Assembly (NCBI GenBank): GCA_024685385.1
Contig: JAIKVV010000113.1
Location: 1 to 64,000, forward strand
Reading direction: 5' to 3'
DNA: 64,000 bases
Origin: Saccharofermentans sp.
GTDB taxonomy: Bacteria; Bacillota; Clostridia; Saccharofermentanales; Saccharofermentanaceae
The position numbers were made by a program, and so were the translations under genes. The notes under the pieces are model-generated. The model worked only from the letters and a program-made list of their open reading frames with translations, had not been told where the DNA came from and ran no database searches. This document shows, piece after piece, positions 8,206 to 18,739 of the stretch (positions are counted from its first letter, which is position 1; every line of letters begins with the position of its first letter).

Positions 8206-8538
8206 ATGGATGAGAAGAAAGAAGTAAAGGTTGCAGCTGAGGCTAAGAAGCCCGTTGCAAAGAAAGTAGCTGCAAAGAAGCCTGCAGCAAAGAAGACAGC
8301 TGCAAAGAAGGTTGCTGCAAAGAAGCCCGCTAAGAAGGCTGCAAAGAAGACAGTTGCTCCCAAGAAGTTCGTTATTCAGGCTATGGGCAACGAAGTATCC
8401 TACGATGCAGTAGTCAAGAAGGTTAACAAGGCTTATAAGGAAAACATCAAGACTCTTGAGATCTATGTAAAGCCCGAAGAGAACAAGGCTTACTATTTCA
8501 TCAACGGTAAGGATGACGGAAGCGTTGATCTCTTCTGA
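8206..8538 (+). CDS. histone-H1-like lysine/alanine-rich protein with DUF6465 domain
   Basis: The 110-residue protein starts at ATG 8206, ten bases after GGAGG (8191-8195); an upstream in-frame extension lies inside the promoter. Residues about 5-53 are almost entirely K, A, P and V in AAKK/AAKKP repeats, like the tails of histone H1 and bacterial H1-like or HupB-type proteins. Residues 54-110 form a compact domain (FVIQAMGNEVSYDAVVKKV...YYFINGKDDGSVDLF) that matches DUF6465. Nucleic-acid binding through the basic tail is a reasonable inference. The gene stands alone between its own promoter and a terminator. Confidence 0.88.
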   Translation: MDEKKEVKVAAEAKKPVAKKVAAKKPAAKKTAAKKVAAKKPAKKAAKKTVAPKKFVIQAMGNEVSYDAVVKKVNKAYKENIKTLEIYVKPEENKAYYFINGKDDGSVDLF

Positions 8539-8635: not shown

Positions 8636-8663
8636 AGCCACGCTATCATGGGAGGAATTGATT

Positions 8664-10241
8664 ATGTTTACTAAGAAGCAATGGCTGCCTTTCGTAATAC
8701 TCATACTTATTATCCAGGCGGCAGCGGAAGCGATGATCGTATACAATGTATTGAAACTCGGCATGCTCCCGACTCATTATCTTGTCCTGTTATTTGCAGT
8801 TCTTCTGCTTCTCATGGTCATAACCATGCTCCTCCTGTGGATGGGAATAGATAAGGAAGCTTCAAAAAAAAAGAAGATCAGGAGGATATTCGGCATTGTC
8901 TTTGCCGCCATCATCGTTATCATTTCCGTTTTCGGATCGTCGGTCGTCGAGAAGGCGATCGGCGCGATCAATAAGATCACGGACGATAATTCATCACTGG
9001 AAGCATCTGTCGGCATTTATGTCCTTAAAGAAGACAGAGCCCAGACTGTAGCTGATCTTAAGGGTTATTTCTTCGGCATCATGGAAGGTTTCGATGATGT
9101 AAATACCAAGATCGCAACGGATGAGATCGAAGCGACTCTCGGCGGAAGCATACAGACTTCGCTTTATTCTTCGATAACGGAAGTTGCGCAGTCGCTCTAC
9201 GACGGTGTCGACGGCGCAGTGCTCATCAATGTCGCATATGCGGATCTTTTATCCGAGTCTGAAGAATTCTCCGATTGGGAAGACAAAGTAAGGCTGCTTT
9301 ATGAAGTTGAGGTCTCGACGGATAAGTATAATCAGTATGCTGCCGAGTACGGCGGAGGCGAACAGGATCCCGAGACACCCGCAGGAACGACAGTTGCCAT
9401 CCAGGATCAGACCAAGCCTGTTGCATCCATCTCCGAAGAACCTTTCATCATCTATGTCAGCGGTTCCGATACGAGAGCTAAGGTTTTGAAGAAGAGCAGA
9501 AGTGATGTTAACATCCTTGTTGTCGTTAATCCCAAGTCCAAGATGGTATTGCTCTTAAATACCCCGCGTGACTATTATGTACCGAACCCGGCCGGCAACG
9601 GTACCATGGATAAGCTCACCCACCTCGGTCTATACGGCGTCAACAACTCGATCAAGGCATTGGCTGATCTTTACGATTGCGAAGTCAACTACTACGGCCA
9701 GATCAACTTTACGGGCTTTGAGAAACTCATCAACTCCCTGGGCGGCATCGATGTTTATTCTCCCAAGTCCTTCAATTCCGGCAACGTCAAGGGTTACCAC
9801 TTCGATAAGGGAATGAATCATATGGACGGCGCATCCGCTCTGGTATTCGTCCGTGAGAGATATGCTTTCAGTGACGGCGATAACATGAGAGGAAAGAACC
9901 AGATGAGAGTCATCTCTGCCATCATCAAGAAGATGACATCAGGTAATTCAAAGGTCCTTATGAACTACAGTTCCATCATAGACAGCATGTCCGGCATGTT
10001 CGTAACCAACCTTGAGAGCAAGGATATTGAAGACCTCGTCAAGATGCAGCTCGGTGATAATGCCGAATGGACGATCAAGAGTTACGGCGTATCAGGTTAC
10101 GGCACATCCGCCAAGACCTATTCCATGCCCAAGATGCGCTGCTATGTCATGAAGCCGGATTCCAAGACCGTTAAGAAGGCAACTGAACTCATCGACCGTG
10201 TCGAAAGAGGAGATATCCTTACGGATGATGATGTAAATTGA
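8664..10241 (+). CDS. LytR-CpsA-Psr (LCP) family cell-wall ligase
   Basis: The 525-residue protein has three N-terminal membrane helices (about 6-25, 32-52, 66-85) and a large extracytoplasmic part. The LCP catalytic domain covers about residues 265-480. It shows SGSDTR, LLLNTPRDYYV, the central LGGIDV motif and FVRERYAFSDGDNMRGKNQ, which carry the arginines and aspartates that bind the polyprenyl pyrophosphate. Such enzymes attach teichoic acid or other anionic polymers to peptidoglycan. ATG 8664 has GGAGG 8 bases upstream. It is a single gene with its own promoter and terminator. Confidence 0.93.
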   Translation: MFTKKQWLPFVILILIIQAAAEAMIVYNVLKLGMLPTHYLVLLFAVLLLLMVITMLLLWMGIDKEASKKKKIRRIFGIVFAAIIVIISVFGSSVVEKAIGAINKITDDNSSLEASVGIYVLKEDRAQTVADLKGYFFGIMEGFDDVNTKIATDEIEATLGGSIQTSLYSSITEVAQSLYDGVDGAVLINVAYADLLSESEEFSDWEDKVRLLYEVEVSTDKYNQYAAEYGGGEQDPETPAGTTVAIQDQTKPVASISEEPFIIYVSGSDTRAKVLKKSRSDVNILVVVNPKSKMVLLLNTPRDYYVPNPAGNGTMDKLTHLGLYGVNNSIKALADLYDCEVNYYGQINFTGFEKLINSLGGIDVYSPKSFNSGNVKGYHFDKGMNHMDGASALVFVRERYAFSDGDNMRGKNQMRVISAIIKKMTSGNSKVLMNYSSIIDSMSGMFVTNLESKDIEDLVKMQLGDNAEWTIKSYGVSGYGTSAKTYSMPKMRCYVMKPDSKTVKKATELIDRVERGDILTDDDVN

Positions 10242-11182: not shown

Positions 11183-13054
11183 ATGAATCCTGTAACGGGA
11201 AGCGCTATATATAAAGCAAACAAGGCTAAAGACATCCATCAACTCATGGCAGAGGCCTGCGCCAAGCATAGTGAAGTTGATGCATTTATATTCAGAAGAT
11301 CTCCTCAGACTTCGGAGATACACCGCACATTTTATGAATTCGGGGAAGACATTAAGGACTTCGGCACATATCTTTTGTCGCTCGGTCTGGGTGATGTTCC
11401 GGTCGGCGTCGTAGGTGAGAACTCCTACGAATGGTTTGTGGCTTATAATGCCATCCTCGGAAGCGGTCTTACGGGCGTTCCGCTTGACAGGGCTCTTCCT
11501 GAAGACGAGCTGATCCAATTGCTTTCCAGATCCAAGACAAAGATCCTCATATATCACCATAAGCATCAGAAGATGATGGAGTCCATCGCAAAGAAGATGG
11601 ATGAGGGGCAGATCGACATCTGTGTCGAAAAGTTCGTGATCATGTACAAGGAAGGCCTTGCATCCAAAAAGAATACAGCGGATGAAGTATGGCCCGATGA
11701 TGAAAGGTTCTTTGATTTCTACGATCTTACTGCTGAGGGCGCCAAGCTCGTTGCAGCAGGAGATACATCCTACGATGAGGTCGTGATAGATCCGAAGGAA
11801 CCCAAGATAATACTCTTCACGTCCGGCACGACTTCCATGAGCAAAGGCGTTCTCCTTACGCATGATAATATCGTATCCAATGTTTTCGCGATCGCCCAGA
11901 CTTTGGATGTTCACAAGGGAGACCGCGCTTTCTCGATCCTTCCTTTGCATCATACTTTCGAGAATACATGCGATTTCTTCATCCTTTCAGCCGGCGGCTG
12001 CATCTGCATGTGTGACGGACTTCGATATATCGTAAAGAATTACGAGGAATGGAAGCCGGATGTATGCATTTCCGTGCCTCTCCTTTATGAGAATATCTAT
12101 TCCAAGCTTGAAGACGGTATCAAGGCTCAGGGCAAGGAAAGAACCATCGAGATAGCAAGGTTCGTTACCAGGTTCTTAAGAAGGTGCGGCCTTGACTTAA
12201 GGCGCAATGTCTTTAAAACGGTCCTTGATAAGCTCGGCGGAAATCTCCGCATGGTCGTAATAGGCGGTGCCGGCATCGACAAGAAGTACATAGATGCTTT
12301 TACGGATCTCGGGATCGACATGTATATGGGATATGGTCTCACGGAGACATCGCCCGTTATTTCCGTTACCAGTGAAGCCTGCAATGTCCACGGTTCCGTC
12401 GGACGCCCGCTTCCCGGAATCGAAGTTAAGATCGATCTTGACCCTTCAACCAAGAAGGCCCGCGGTCCCAAGGCTGTCGGTGAGATCATGACCAGATCCG
12501 ATTGTGTCATGACAGGATATTATGAGAATGAGGAAGCGACGGCTGAAGTTTTCGAGGACGGGTGGTTTCGGACCGGCGATATGGGCTATATCGACAAGAA
12601 GGGCTGCATCCACATAACGGGAAGAGTCAAGTCCATGATCGTCCTTACAAACGGCAAGAAGGCTTTCCCTGAAGAGATCGAGGCTGTCCTTACGGAGATC
12701 CCCGGTGTTGCCGAAGCATTTGTCTGGGGCTATTCAAATGAAAGATCCGCGATCGACATATGTGCTAAGGTCCTGATCAACCGCAAAGAGATCGGACGTG
12801 CTCTGGGAGACAAGGTCGAACCTGATGATGCAGCTGTCGAAGCATATCTTAACGACCGGATCAATGATGCAAATCACCAGATGCCTGCATATAAATATGT
12901 ACATCATTATGTTTTCTCAGAAGAAGAGATGATCAAGACCACAACGCTCAAGATCAAGCGCCCCAAGGAGCAGGAGCATATCGAATCCAGGCTTGCTGCA
13001 AGCGGCGTTACCATGCGTGAAGTGGCCGGCAAGAACTTCGACAAACTCGTATGA
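11183..13054 (+). CDS. AMP-binding long-chain acyl-CoA synthetase
   Basis: The 623-residue adenylate-forming enzyme activates fatty acids to acyl-AMP and then acyl-CoA. Visible motifs are the P-loop-like LFTSGTTSMSKG (from residue about 211), YGLTET (about 383), GWFRTGDMG (about 460) and the C-terminal TLKIKRP, which carries the catalytic lysine (about 590). It resembles the long-chain FadD/ACSL group more than acetyl-CoA synthetases. It ends in an ATGA overlap with the YgjP-like peptidase gene. The neighbouring divergent plsC suggests the acyl-CoA feeds lipid synthesis, which is inference. Confidence 0.9.
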   Translation: MNPVTGSAIYKANKAKDIHQLMAEACAKHSEVDAFIFRRSPQTSEIHRTFYEFGEDIKDFGTYLLSLGLGDVPVGVVGENSYEWFVAYNAILGSGLTGVPLDRALPEDELIQLLSRSKTKILIYHHKHQKMMESIAKKMDEGQIDICVEKFVIMYKEGLASKKNTADEVWPDDERFFDFYDLTAEGAKLVAAGDTSYDEVVIDPKEPKIILFTSGTTSMSKGVLLTHDNIVSNVFAIAQTLDVHKGDRAFSILPLHHTFENTCDFFILSAGGCICMCDGLRYIVKNYEEWKPDVCISVPLLYENIYSKLEDGIKAQGKERTIEIARFVTRFLRRCGLDLRRNVFKTVLDKLGGNLRMVVIGGAGIDKKYIDAFTDLGIDMYMGYGLTETSPVISVTSEACNVHGSVGRPLPGIEVKIDLDPSTKKARGPKAVGEIMTRSDCVMTGYYENEEATAEVFEDGWFRTGDMGYIDKKGCIHITGRVKSMIVLTNGKKAFPEEIEAVLTEIPGVAEAFVWGYSNERSAIDICAKVLINRKEIGRALGDKVEPDDAAVEAYLNDRINDANHQMPAYKYVHHYVFSEEEMIKTTTLKIKRPKEQEHIESRLAASGVTMREVAGKNFDKLV

Positions 13055-13752
13055 GTGTCGTAACAAGGACCATCGAAATAGAAGGAAAACAGATTTCCTA
13101 TACCATTACAAGGAAAAGGATCAAGCGCGTGAACATGAGGGTGAAGTCTTCATCTTCTTTTGCCGTGTCCTGTCCTTATTATGTTCCCGAAAGCGAGATC
13201 GACCGCTTCATCCGGGAGAATATTCCTTTCCTGATAAAAGGCATGCAGAAGATGCTTGAAAGGGAAGAGGAGGAAGAGAAGAACACTTCCGCAGAAGACG
13301 GCTCGATTATAAAATTCCTGGGAAAAGAACTTTTTCTGGAAGTCATCCCTTCTGCCAGGAACAATATAGAATATGACGACAACTGCATCTTTGTCTTCTC
13401 GATCCACAGTGATGATCCCGATTATGTGAGGAGGAAACTCGAACTGTGGAAAAGATCCGTTCTCAAGGATCTCGTTTTCGAACTTTGCATGAAGACCGAA
13501 AAGAGGATGAATGTCAAAAGTCCGGACAGGATAATGTTCGGAAATTATAAGTCTTTCTGGGGAGAATGCTTCCCTTCGAAGGGGACGCTCAAGTTCTCCT
13601 GCCGCCTCATCGAAAAGCCCGTGGATATCATAGAATATGTCGTTGTCCACGAGTATGCCCATTTTGCTCATCCTGACCATTCGAAGGCTTTCTGGGATGA
13701 GGTTTCCCTTTACGATCCTGACTATAAAGAGCACAGGAAACTCCTTAAGTAA
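13051..13752 (+). CDS. YgjP-like zinc metallopeptidase (DUF45, M48-like)
   Basis: The 233-residue cytoplasmic protein has the metal-binding motif H200-E201-Y-A-H204, followed by FAHPDHSKAFW, the signature of YgjP/SprT-like metalloproteases. The upstream CFPSKGTLKFSCRLIEKP stretch is also typical (WGSCS...LRLNWRL in relatives). The ATG overlaps the stop of the acyl-CoA synthetase (ATGA), so translation is coupled. Substrates of this family are poorly known. No signal peptide is present. Confidence 0.9.
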   Translation: MSVVTRTIEIEGKQISYTITRKRIKRVNMRVKSSSSFAVSCPYYVPESEIDRFIRENIPFLIKGMQKMLEREEEEEKNTSAEDGSIIKFLGKELFLEVIPSARNNIEYDDNCIFVFSIHSDDPDYVRRKLELWKRSVLKDLVFELCMKTEKRMNVKSPDRIMFGNYKSFWGECFPSKGTLKFSCRLIEKPVDIIEYVVVHEYAHFAHPDHSKAFWDEVSLYDPDYKEHRKLLK

Positions 13753-13823
13753 CTTCGATAGACCTTATTGTTTTTTTGAGTTATCATTAGGTCATGTATG
13801 CCGTATGGGGAGGATATGCTCTT

Positions 13824-16800
13824 ATGGATGAACAGCTTAAACAGTTAAGGGACAAAAAGTTTGATATGTGGGAGCGCAAGCTCCTTGACTTAAGCTTAAG
13901 GAATAATCTCTTAAACAGCAGGAAGACACAGATGATCCGTCTTCTTGTTTCCGATCCTTCACTGATGGAGGATAAGCTCAACAGCGATAAGGAGTATAAG
14001 ATCTGCCCCCTGTCCGACTGCGGATTGGAAGAGAAAGACTACGGCATGGAAGACATGCCGCAGGATGAGGAAGGCAAGTTATTAAAGGAATTCGAATCGG
14101 ATAAGATCTTTACCGACATGACGAGAGGCGCCCTTGATGACAAGATCAAGGATATGTTCCGTAAAGGCAAGGTTGCGGAAGAAGAGAACGGCGCATCGTC
14201 ACTTTACCTTGCGACTTGTTTTCTGAGATGGAGACAGAAGGATTCGGATACAGACCTTTATGCGCCCATCCTGCTCATTCCCTGCGACATTACACGTAAA
14301 TCAATAGTATTGGGATATAAGGTCAAGAGGCGCGATGAGGATTCATTGCTCAATATCACCATCATAGAAAAACTAAGGCAGGATTTCGGAATCGAGATCC
14401 CTGATTTTGCCGGGGGACTTCCCCAGGATGAATCAGGCGTTGACGTGAAGGCAGTCATCGATACTGTGAATGCCGCGATCGAAGGCCTTGAAGGCTGGGC
14501 AGTCGTAAATACCGTGCTTTTGGGCCTGTTCTCATTCAGCAGGTTCGTAATGTGGAATGACATGCATTCGAACAGGGAAATGATCGCCGAGAACGACCTT
14601 GTTAAGAGCCTTTATTCCGGAGCTGCGACGCAGGAGATCCTGGAGATAGACAGATCCGATGCTGAAGAGGAGGATGTCTTCCTGCCTCTTACTGCAGATG
14701 CATCACAGATAAATGCGATCAAGGCGGCAACTCATGATGAGACTTTCGTTCTTCACGGCCCTCCCGGAACCGGTAAATCACAGACGATCACGTCCATGAT
14801 CGCCGACGGCATCGCAAACGGCAGGACGATCCTTTTCGCTGCGGAAAAGAAGGTCGCCCTTGATGTTGTTTATTCAAGACTTGAAAAGATCGGAATCGCT
14901 CCTTTCTGTCTGGAACTTCATTCCAACAAGGCCAAGAAGAGCTACGTGCTCGAGCAGCTCCGCATCGCGAGCGAATTAAGGCTCGAAAAGCATGATCCTT
15001 CTGATTACGACCGTAAGCTCAAGGAAATGACCGAGAGAAGACGCGAACTCGACGGTTATGTCGCGGCTCTTCATAAGAGACAGGATAACGGCTATACGGT
15101 CTATGAACTCATCAACATGTATGCGCAGAACGAGACTGCGCCTGACATAGCTAATTTCCCGGACGGCTTCTTCGACGGCTTTAAAGCGGAAGACGTTACC
15201 GAGATAGAATCCCTCCTGGGCGAGATGGCTGCCGCAAGAGCAGAAGGAACGGAAGACCTTTCCTTTATCCGTGCGACGGAATATAACCAGACCATGAGAG
15301 ACTCTGTAAGACCTGCCGCAACAAGATGCAGGGAAGACATAGCTAAAGTAAGAGACGCGAAGGGAAGATTGACGGAGTCATCCGGCAGGTTCGGAGTATC
15401 ATTCCCCCAGTCCGATGAAACAAAAGAGTCTCTTGCTTCATTGGCTGAAAATGTTAAGGGCTGTCTTGCATGTTCAAGCCTGCCCTCCTATTTCCTTTCG
15501 AATGATACCGAGAAGAGCATCAATGACATCACTGCCATGAGCGATATCTATTCATCGGCATATGCCATGAAGGATGATCTTCTCACAAGATGGAATGAGG
15601 ACTTCCTGACCCGTGATCCGAAAAAACTCCTGGATGAATTCGACGATGCACAGGGCAAGATAGGTCCCTTGAAATCCATGGCAGTCAATTCTCTTTATAA
15701 GAAGATCAAGGATGCTGATAAGACTAACGGCAAGGTCAAGGATGACATGAGGGCTGAATTTACGAAACTCTCGCAATTCATCGAGACCCGCGCCAAGGCT
15801 GATTCTATCTACGATCAGTACAGGGCATTAATGCCTGCTGTCACTTCTTTTGCTGAAGCAGCCTCAGTGAAGGCAGCCGCAGATTCCGCAAGAGAGGGAT
15901 TTTCGAAAGTTTCTTCCATAAGCGGAGTATCTTCTTATATCAAGGCTTTAGCTTCTGATGCTGACGCCAGGGCTGCTGCCGAGGGCTTCATCGGATCATG
16001 TGATGAACTTGATGCATCTTATTCTGCTCTTAACGGCATACTGAACCTTGAAGGAGGAGATAACTACCTCTCTCTTGAGGAAGCAGAGAAAAAGACTGAT
16101 GTCATCCTTAATAACGAAGACCGTTTAAGATCTTATCTCCTCTTCAATTACTCGGCTTCCAGAGTAAGAGGCGCCGGAGCTGCAAATGTTGCCGAAAACT
16201 TCATCAAGGGTGAGATCAAGGAAGATGAACTGGTTCCTGCTTTCCGCAAGAAACTGTCAAGGGAACTTGCGGTAAGATCCATAGATTCCGAGGAAGCATT
16301 GAAGAACTTCTCGTCTGATATTTTCGAAGAGAAGGTAAGACAGTTTGCGAAAGCCGACGACGAGTTCGTGAAGGTCACGAGAGAAGAGATATACTTAAGC
16401 CTTCTTAAGAGACTGCCCGACCTTAAGGCTGATGCAAATTCAGGATCGGTCCTCGGCATATTGCAGCATGCGATAAAGAGCCGCGGGCGCGGTGTTTCCA
16501 TCAGGACTTTATTCTCCAACATCGGCGATTTTATCCTTAAGCTCTGCCCCTGCATGCTCATGAGCCCGATCTCCGTTGCCCAGTATCTCGAACCCGGTAA
16601 GATCAATTTCGATACGGTCATCTTCGACGAGGCTTCACAGATCCCGACGGCCGAGGCGATCGGAGTGCTCGCAAGAGGCAGAAATGCCGTTATCGTCGGA
16701 GATCCCAACCAGATGCCGCCGACGAACTTCTTCCAGGCGATGCAGACCGAAGACGAGAATGCCCTTTTCGATGTTTCAGACGACGGAATCGTATATGACG

Positions 16801-18152
16801 ATCTGGAGAGCATCCTTGATGACTGCCTTGCGATCAACATGCCTTCCATGTATCTTGCATGGCATTACAGGAGCCACCATGAGAGCCTCATCACATTCTC
16901 TAACCGCTCTTTCTACGACGGCAAGCTCTATACATTCCCTTCGGCAGACAACAGGATCTCCAAGGTTACTCTTGTGGATGCGGGAGGAACCTTTGACAGG
17001 GGCAAGAAGAGAGTCAATGAAGTCGAGGCAAAAGCGGTCGTCGATGACATTTACAGAAGGTTCAAGGAAGGCGGCGGCAAGCCCTGCAGCATAGGTGTCG
17101 TTACTTTTAACATCAACCAGCAGAACTTAATAGACGACCTTATCTCCGCCAAGTGCGGCGAGGACCGTGAATTCGAAGAATGGGTCTACGGACAGGAAGA
17201 GCCCGTATTCGTTAAGAACCTCGAAAACGTTCAGGGCGACGAGCGCGATGTCATCCTCTTCTCCGTTGCATACGGCAAGGACGAGGAAGGCAAGATCTAT
17301 ATGAACTTCGGCCCTCTCAACCGCGACGGCGGCTGGAGAAGGCTCAATGTTGCCGTAACCCGTTCAAGAGATGAGATGAAAGTATTCTCGTCCTTAAGGC
17401 CTGAAGATATCAAACTCAATGACGGAAGTTCCGACGGCGTCGTCGCTTTCAGGAGATTTTTGGATTATGCATACGGCAACAGCGCCTGGGATTACGATCT
17501 CCAGGTCGTATCCGGAGCCGATAATCAAAGCCCTGTCATCGACAGGAGCGCAGCCTTTACGGGTGTAGCCGATGAGATCATAAGAAGGCTTGAAAATGAA
17601 GGATATTCCTGCGACAGGAATATCGGCAAATCATCTTTCAAGGTCGATATCGGTATTGCCGACAAGGAGACACCCGACGTATATAAGCTCGGAATACTTC
17701 TGGACGGACCTTCCTATTTTGCTTCCAAGACTACTTCTGCCAGGGAAGTATCTCAGCCTTCGCTCCTTAAGGGTTTGGGCTGGAAACTCCTCCGTGTAAG
17801 AGTGATAGAGTGGTGGGAATCACCAGACAAGGTCATGGATGAGATAATCAGTGTCCTTAATAAGCCGGAAGAAAAAGTTCCGGAAGAAGAAACAGAAACT
17901 GTTGAACCTGCCGCAGAAGAAACGGTAATTCCTGATAATGCAGCTGACGAAGCAGTTCCCGAGGAGAATGTTGAGCAGCCTGAAATTGCTGAGCCTGCCG
18001 AATGGACCTGCGAATGCGGCCAGAGCGGAAACACGGGCAAGTTCTGCAGCGAATGCGGAAAGCCGCGTCCCGAAACTGCCGTGACGGAAGATGCAGCTGA
18101 AGTGACAGCTGAAGAAAACGCTGATGAAGGGGAAGACGTAAAAAAAAACTGA
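13824..18152 (+). CDS. DUF4011 / SF1 helicase / Vsr-like nuclease, zero-frame product
   Basis: The 1442-residue zero-frame product starts at ATG 13824, ten bases after GGGGAGG; an upstream in-frame ATG (13794) lacks an SD. Domains in order: DUF4011 (FDMWERKLLDLSLRNNLLNSR at the start); SF1 helicase with Walker A GPPGTGKS (312-319) and DEAS Walker B (about 934), then DPNQMPPT; helicase C part with QGDERDVILFSV and VAVTRSRDEM; a Vsr/MTES_1575-like nuclease domain (about 1240-1345, D1275 in KVDIGIAD); an acidic linker; and a zinc ribbon (C1396, C1398, C1408, C1411). Related helicase-nucleases are linked to phage defence or DNA processing, but the function here is unproven. It stops at 18152, directly after A AAA AAC; the family's usual C-terminal DUF3320 lies in the -1 frame. 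Confidence 0.93.
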   Translation: MDEQLKQLRDKKFDMWERKLLDLSLRNNLLNSRKTQMIRLLVSDPSLMEDKLNSDKEYKICPLSDCGLEEKDYGMEDMPQDEEGKLLKEFESDKIFTDMTRGALDDKIKDMFRKGKVAEEENGASSLYLATCFLRWRQKDSDTDLYAPILLIPCDITRKSIVLGYKVKRRDEDSLLNITIIEKLRQDFGIEIPDFAGGLPQDESGVDVKAVIDTVNAAIEGLEGWAVVNTVLLGLFSFSRFVMWNDMHSNREMIAENDLVKSLYSGAATQEILEIDRSDAEEEDVFLPLTADASQINAIKAATHDETFVLHGPPGTGKSQTITSMIADGIANGRTILFAAEKKVALDVVYSRLEKIGIAPFCLELHSNKAKKSYVLEQLRIASELRLEKHDPSDYDRKLKEMTERRRELDGYVAALHKRQDNGYTVYELINMYAQNETAPDIANFPDGFFDGFKAEDVTEIESLLGEMAAARAEGTEDLSFIRATEYNQTMRDSVRPAATRCREDIAKVRDAKGRLTESSGRFGVSFPQSDETKESLASLAENVKGCLACSSLPSYFLSNDTEKSINDITAMSDIYSSAYAMKDDLLTRWNEDFLTRDPKKLLDEFDDAQGKIGPLKSMAVNSLYKKIKDADKTNGKVKDDMRAEFTKLSQFIETRAKADSIYDQYRALMPAVTSFAEAASVKAAADSAREGFSKVSSISGVSSYIKALASDADARAAAEGFIGSCDELDASYSALNGILNLEGGDNYLSLEEAEKKTDVILNNEDRLRSYLLFNYSASRVRGAGAANVAENFIKGEIKEDELVPAFRKKLSRELAVRSIDSEEALKNFSSDIFEEKVRQFAKADDEFVKVTREEIYLSLLKRLPDLKADANSGSVLGILQHAIKSRGRGVSIRTLFSNIGDFILKLCPCMLMSPISVAQYLEPGKINFDTVIFDEASQIPTAEAIGVLARGRNAVIVGDPNQMPPTNFFQAMQTEDENALFDVSDDGIVYDDLESILDDCLAINMPSMYLAWHYRSHHESLITFSNRSFYDGKLYTFPSADNRISKVTLVDAGGTFDRGKKRVNEVEAKAVVDDIYRRFKEGGGKPCSIGVVTFNINQQNLIDDLISAKCGEDREFEEWVYGQEEPVFVKNLENVQGDERDVILFSVAYGKDEEGKIYMNFGPLNRDGGWRRLNVAVTRSRDEMKVFSSLRPEDIKLNDGSSDGVVAFRRFLDYAYGNSAWDYDLQVVSGADNQSPVIDRSAAFTGVADEIIRRLENEGYSCDRNIGKSSFKVDIGIADKETPDVYKLGILLDGPSYFASKTTSAREVSQPSLLKGLGWKLLRVRVIEWWESPDKVMDEIISVLNKPEEKVPEEETETVEPAAEETVIPDNAADEAVPEENVEQPEIAEPAEWTCECGQSGNTGKFCSECGKPRPETAVTEDAAEVTAEENADEGEDVKKN

Positions 18153-18176
18153 ATGAGGAGACTCTTTCCTGCATTC
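18127..18176 (+). other. candidate programmed -1 frameshift site
   Basis: Elements in order are SD-like AAGGGG (18127-18132), a 10-base gap, the slippery heptamer A AAA AAC (18143-18149, within nine A from 18140), a zero-frame TGA (18150-18152), and a hairpin GAATGAGGA (18151-18159) with TCCT-g-CATTC (18167-18176). After a -1 slip the reading continues K-L-N-E-E-T-L-S-C-I-P-Y-E-I without a stop into the DUF3320 frame and ends at 18739. The fused product would be 1638 residues. Transcriptional slippage on A9, or an assembly undercall of one A, would give the same fusion. Confidence 0.72.
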
Positions 18177-18208
18177 CTTATGAAATAACGTCTCTTGCTC
18201 CGCATCCC

Positions 18209-18739
18209 ATGAACATAGATGCCTTCTGCAAGGAAGGCTCCGATACTACCGTGAAGATGCTCGTGGAAGACATCCGCAGGATAGTCGAAACGGAAGCTCC
18301 CGTAAGCCTTGATATAGTCGCAAAAAGGCTTTGCGATGCATGCGGCATCGAAAAGGTCACATCCAGGGTGAGCACCAGGATCGATTACCTTGTAAGATAC
18401 GGCAAATTCTGCTGTCAGGCATCTGATGCAGGCAAGAGATTCATATACAGATCCTCATCGGATATAGGTCTGGTAAATGACTGCTACAGGACAGGAGGGG
18501 ACCGTGACATCACGGATGTCCCGCCGGAAGAACTTGCTGCTTGCGCCATTGCGGTAACTTCCGTTCAGTACGGCATGCCGGAAGAAAACCTTGCCAAAGA
18601 AGTTGCTTCGGCTTTCGGGGTCAAACGATGCGCGGTTACGTCAGCTGCTTATAAGACTGCAGCAGAAGGCGTTAAGTTTGCTCTCGATAACAGATATCTG
18701 ACGGTCGATTCCAACGGCAGGGTCATACTCGTGCCATAG
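18209..18739 (+). CDS. DUF3320-type C-terminal part of the helicase, in the -1 frame
   Basis: The ATG at 18209 would give 176 residues, but it has no SD before it and the frame is open back to the A9 tract at 18140. The segment from IPYEITSLAPHP onward (VEDIRRIVETEAPVSLDIVAKRLCDACG...PPEELAACAIAV) has the winged-helix-like pattern of DUF3320. That module normally forms the C-terminus of DUF4011 helicases, right after the nuclease domain. I therefore think it is made mainly as an extension of the 13824 protein through frameshifting. A separate protein is possible but poorly supported. Confidence 0.75.
   Translation: MNIDAFCKEGSDTTVKMLVEDIRRIVETEAPVSLDIVAKRLCDACGIEKVTSRVSTRIDYLVRYGKFCCQASDAGKRFIYRSSSDIGLVNDCYRTGGDRDITDVPPEELAACAIAVTSVQYGMPEENLAKEVASAFGVKRCAVTSAAYKTAAEGVKFALDNRYLTVDSNGRVILVP

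Follow-up and report, generated by a model that had tools for sequence, protein, structure and literature searches.

Among the closest described systems is dnaX of Thermus thermophilus, in which slippage on nine A's towards the end of the coding sequence gives long and short forms of the protein, with stops nearby in both other frames; in many genomes, moreover, selection against slippage becomes apparent once a run reaches nine (PMC5009743, PMC1088944). In E. coli, dnaX carries a Shine-Dalgarno (SD) sequence, the heptamer A AAA AAG and a stem-loop, and gives two products with a common N-terminus. In the dnaX genes of some bacteria, which are divided into two open reading frames (ORFs), a frame change on poly-A is needed for the longer product (GeneTack, PMC3711429; PMC5009743), and in Shigella mxiE and spa13 two overlapping ORFs are joined by polymerase slippage, likewise giving a longer product. 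Beyond dnaX, secretion genes and insertion sequence (IS) elements, conserved functional slippage has seldom been documented in bacterial genes, and no report of it for DUF4011 helicases was found in the open-access literature. The stretch of Saccharofermentans sp. DNA analyzed here (contig JAIKVV010000113.1, positions 1 to 64,000, hereafter the window) contains a gene for a DUF4011 helicase-nuclease whose last domain, DUF3320, lies in another frame behind nine A's. The conserved tract is probably a programmed slippage site, used mainly by RNA polymerase, that gives the helicase-nuclease with and without its DUF3320 tail.

The gene starts on the forward strand at the ATG at 13824, which has GGAGG upstream, in contrast to an in-frame ATG at 13794. 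Its 0 frame (13824-18152, 1442 residues) contains by Pfam DUF4011, a split superfamily 1 (SF1) helicase (AAA_11/AAA_12) and the Vsr-like nuclease MTES_1575, followed by an acidic linker that contains a zinc ribbon. The tract consists of nine A's (18140-18148) and a C at 18149; it is read in the 0 frame as GTA AAA AAA AAC, with the heptamer A AAA AAC at 18143-18149 in the 0-frame register, and the TGA stop (18150-18152) follows directly. The −1 frame is open from 18128 to the stop codon at 18737-18739, and its part from 18149 to 18739 encodes DUF3320 (Pfam, 3.5e-13), a predicted tandem winged-helix region that would form the C-terminus of a 1638-residue long form. The original prediction, that the helicase-nuclease and DUF3320 are linked by a programmed change of frame, with a short and a long form as products, is supported by the comparison of relatives described below; the stop right after the heptamer, the open −1 frame and the lengths of 1442 and 1638 residues were all found as it had given them. 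Its proposal that the short form ends after the zinc ribbon is true of the window (18000-18080) and of the relative L082 but not of the family in general: among seven linkers inspected by eye, L081 and four others have no such ribbon.

The order DUF4011, SF1 helicase, MTES_1575 nuclease and DUF3320 is that of DUF4011 helicase-nucleases of the PDC-S37/ProA type, and the profile matches are strong. PDC-S37 (PADLOC) scores 985 bits with the short form and 56 bits with the DUF3320 part, NCBIfam ProA (NF058533) scores 1335 and 66 bits, about 1400 in total and below its cut-off of 1500, and NCBIfam Hhe (NF042953) scores 694 bits, below its cut-off of 2000. These profiles describe anti-phage or candidate anti-phage helicases, and by this resemblance the window protein would be of the defence type. 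It differs from them in its scores below the ProA and Hhe cut-offs and in that DUF4011 helicase-nucleases from outside the genus almost always have an in-frame DUF3320 and no tract.

Among 85 genomes of the genus, the helicase was found in 71 and DUF3320 in 69. The junction was read in 71 loci, namely the window and 70 relatives (68 of the genus and two of other families), and a tract is present at the same place in 61 of them (60 relatives and the window). It is A9C in 56 loci, A9G in one (L078), A10G in one (L036) and A7 in three (L039, L066 and L076); the ten loci with no tract all have DUF3320 in frame. Wherever there are at least eight A's at the junction the number is nine, with one exception among 58 loci. 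In a tree of the helicase-nuclease region the loci with a tract are all gathered in a single clade (95/95); frame status changed at least seven times and so did tract phase, counts from which gain and loss are not separable. Frame status changed through alterations outside the tract, while the length stayed at nine. Separately, in L190 (genome G043, of another family), DUF3320 is broken mid-domain over two frames, perhaps in a decaying copy.

Long runs of A are rare elsewhere in the genome. Runs of at least nine A's occur in four places in the 2.37 Mb window genome, counting both strands, with two of them in coding sequence; 220 kb of loci hold a single other run of at least eight A's and no such run of T's, and the junction is the sole AAAAAAAAAC in 24 of 56 genomes. 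The tract also opposes codon usage: Lys is encoded by AAA in 19% of cases and Gln by CAA in 6%, and of 197 Lys-Lys pairs 4 are AAA-AAA.

The tract occurs in all three codon phases (0, 1 and 2) among the relatives, and the loci fall into two mirror layouts. In 25 of the 61 tract loci DUF3320 is out of frame and slippage is needed to reach it. Of these, 24, including the window, need a −1 shift, and their 0 frame closes 0-21 codons past the tract. The remaining one, L036 (genome G006), has A10G where its close relatives L078 and L098 have A9, and its DUF3320 needs +1; this is either a real change of length or an assembly slip. The other 36 loci have an in-frame DUF3320 (typically CAA AAA AAA ACT GAC). 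All 36 have a −1 frame that stops within one codon and a +1 frame that stops within five, a combination present at 1.7% of control positions in the same genes. Because both other frames close so early, slippage in the in-frame layout is expected to give the short form, whereas in the split layout it would give the long form, and both layouts therefore predict a long and a short protein.

Three relatives with seven A's stand apart. In L039, L066 and L076 the A7 is in the register NNA AAA AAA, SD-like motifs lie upstream, and an identical hairpin, CCCGCAGG-(5 nt)-CCTGCGGG, with an invariant stem of 8 bp, starts exactly 5 nt 3' of the A's, in sequence that has diverged on both sides. The heptamer, the SD-like site and the stem at 5 nt are thus all present as in dnaX of E. 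coli. The nearest relatives of these loci, L087 and L091, have A9C and lack the hairpin. This sub-clade has probably switched to ribosomal frameshifting, although three sequences with an invariant stem offer no test by covariation.

The same mechanism, −1 frameshifting by the ribosome at a programmed site, A AAA AAC, had been proposed for the window; on that heptamer or on A AAA AAA it could be thought to be the main one in all the species. Several observations favor it, and some of them weigh against polymerase slippage. A AAA AAA is available in all three phases, so that ribosomal slippage is possible everywhere. The window has the SD-like AAGGGG (18127-18132) 10 nt upstream of the heptamer, exactly as predicted, which may be a local stimulator. 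SD-like sites precede 11 of the 21 split A9 loci, against about 20% elsewhere in their linkers (20-24% over both layouts), and this enrichment hints at a ribosomal part, in species that are related and hence not independent. The A7 loci, with their heptamer, stem and SD-like sites, also speak for a ribosome. The signals do not hold across the A9 loci, however. Only 2 of the 36 in-frame loci have an SD-like site, which is below the background, and the A9 loci have no common downstream hairpin (mean z −0.2 for in-frame and −0.7 for split loci). The hairpin predicted in the window (18151-18176) does fold, at −9.7 kcal/mol, but it is ordinary (z −1.3, with 22 of 200 shuffles folding as well), it begins 1-2 nt past the tract and not at the 5-8 nt of a stem-loop of the dnaX type, and the nearest relatives do not share it. 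No hairpin or SD-like site that could be a general stimulator was found across the A9 loci. What is conserved among homologues is the nine A's as such, and neither the phase, as a conserved A AAA AAC would demand, nor the SD-like site. A heptamer needs seven A's in one register, yet two more are kept in all three phases, and the A9 loci close the +1 frame within five codons, for which a one-way −1 shift has no need, while the A7 loci leave it open for 14-24 codons. Nine A's kept in every phase, both other frames closed and no shared hairpin together favor slippage by RNA polymerase, and the A9 loci match Thermus dnaX in having at least nine A's in the sense strand, in keeping them irrespective of phase with the other frames closed nearby, and in the rarity of long A runs elsewhere in the genome. 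Ribosomal frameshifting as the main mechanism in all species, the window included, is for these reasons unlikely; the original prediction was probably wrong on this point, although its picture fits the three A7 relatives and a ribosomal contribution is possible in the split loci.

The other explanations dispense with programmed slippage altogether. A homopolymer at a frame junction is the classic form of a contingency locus, and replication slippage that alters the tract length could switch DUF3320 on and off heritably; the A10 of L036 beside the A9 of its close relatives would be an example. Against such phase variation, 57 of the 58 loci that have at least eight A's have exactly nine, and frame status varies through changes outside the tract, which makes this reading very improbable. 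The split genes could also be two genes, with DUF3320 made separately by reinitiation or translational coupling, as the 0-frame stop near or overlapping the DUF3320 frame might suggest. In a scan ahead of the conserved domain, though, 22 of the 24 split −1 loci had no start codon with an SD sequence in the DUF3320 frame near the stop. From the tract on, the −1 frame shows constraint on the protein: the ratio of nonsynonymous to synonymous changes (pN/pS) directly 3' of the tract is 0.31, while the other frames have values of about 1 or higher, in a short stretch compared in one clade of seven species. Translation therefore appears to enter the DUF3320 frame through the tract and, given that both parts share one frame in 36 tract-bearing relatives, separate synthesis is still less credible than phase variation. 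Finally, the genomes behind the loci are all drafts, most of them assembled from metagenomes, a point that weighs against programmed slippage and leaves room for a mistake in sequencing or assembly, or for a gene in decay. A9 nonetheless recurs in the separate assemblies of 57 species, where the locus is syntenic, the frames downstream are intact and the protein is under constraint, so the number of A's in the window is not a miscount, and this last explanation has the least to commend it of all.

The RNA-DNA hybrid within RNA polymerase is about 9 bp long. The polymerase would slip on the nine A's and produce mRNAs with 8, 9, 10 or more A's. From the window gene, an mRNA with nine A's would give the short form of 1442 residues and one with ten the long form of 1638; in the in-frame relatives, nine A's would give the long form and the frame-shifting lengths the short one, and every tract-bearing species would then make both forms. 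In the split loci some −1 slippage of ribosomes on the same A's may contribute, and in the A7 sub-clade ribosomal frameshifting probably replaces polymerase slippage. On balance, we lean somewhat towards a history in which one genus kept a two-product output while the frame flipped repeatedly between long-by-default and short-by-default, one sub-clade using the ribosome (A7) and the others the polymerase (A9).

Compared with dnaX of T. thermophilus, where slippage is described with stops in both other frames as in the in-frame relatives here, this is another gene, the layout is mirrored in many species, which would depend on slippage to make the long form, and slippage is predicted from DNA (PMC5009743, PMC1088944). 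The A7 sub-clade, with A AAA AAA, a stem at 5 nt and an SD-like site, resembles dnaX of E. coli, where, unlike here, the shift yields the short form; the window and the other A9 loci have no conserved stem or fixed register. The two-ORF dnaX genes have 7-10 A's, whereas here nine are fixed, in a helicase-nuclease. The Shigella genes are secretion genes with other tracts, and the portion of the source that treats them describes no mirror-image relatives.

The long form would carry a tail that likely binds DNA, while the short form would retain the helicase and the nuclease. AlphaFold2 models DUF3320 with a predicted local distance difference test (pLDDT) score of 95 as two winged-helix units, at about 28-104 and 105-196. 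A sequence search of DUF3320 against solved structures gave no match, and structure comparison (best Foldseek E 0.006, VIA Z at most 8) points to winged-helix folds in general only, the fold class from which DNA binding is suggested. In E. coli, the defence NTPase McrB is made with and without its DNA-binding part; there an internal start removes the N-terminus from the short form, whereas here it is the C-terminal tail that would vary. By analogy, a fixed mixture of long and short forms may tune assembly or activity, as do tau and gamma in DnaX or the forms of McrB. The winged helix-turn-helix (wHTH) assignment made for DUF3320 in PMC3710099 agrees with the AlphaFold2 model.

A similarity search provided 80 loci, of which 4 were from the genus and 76 from elsewhere. 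Most of these 76 are in-frame fusions without one, so the tract seems to have arisen as an innovation within the genus. Among them, A9 near the junction was found only in Apibacter (32% GC), in frame: L120 (Apibacter muscae) has A9T (CAA AAA AAA ATG), with a −1 stop after 2 codons and a +1 stop after 6, which may be convergent or due to chance in an AT-rich genome. In L119 (Candidatus Lachnoclostridium stercoripullorum), DUF3320 and the nuclease are in different frames although there is no long run of A's.

In the window the gene stands among metabolic genes, which include an AMP-binding enzyme (11183-13054), a YgjP-like metallopeptidase (13051-13752) and a beta-galactosidase. The first two, both on the forward strand, are the upstream neighbors conserved in the genus, and of 29 loci searched in relatives 18 have at least one of the two. 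For this reason the helicase locus is considered to be inherited in place, syntenic in the genus, and not part of a defence island. The genome has only two coding A9 sites, both within the window: the junction and an A9G (TCA AAA AAA AAG, 8864-8872) inside a LytR-CpsA-Psr gene (8658-10241), where it is likely a Lys stretch following a membrane helix. The dnaX gene of this genome was considered as a further user of A9 and rejected, given that it is an open frame of 718 residues with no genomic A9 site on its contig. A small histone-H1-like protein with Lys/Ala-rich repeats (AKKPVAKKVAAKK...) is encoded at 8206-8538.

The genus constitutes a natural experiment of about 60 species, in which the tract stays fixed while it occurs in three phases, the layout exists in two mirror versions and the mechanism has probably changed; comparing the species is by itself a help in telling slippage of the polymerase from that of the ribosome. 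If the proposal is true, gene callers divide the protein in two in about 40% of the species with a tract (25 of 61) and overlook the short form in all others. A further step, which goes beyond the present evidence, would be that the ratio of long to short form responds to transcription or translation altered by phage. The ratio of the isoforms would in any case, if slippage occurs as proposed, be a point of control, open to testing, in a helicase-nuclease of the defence type.
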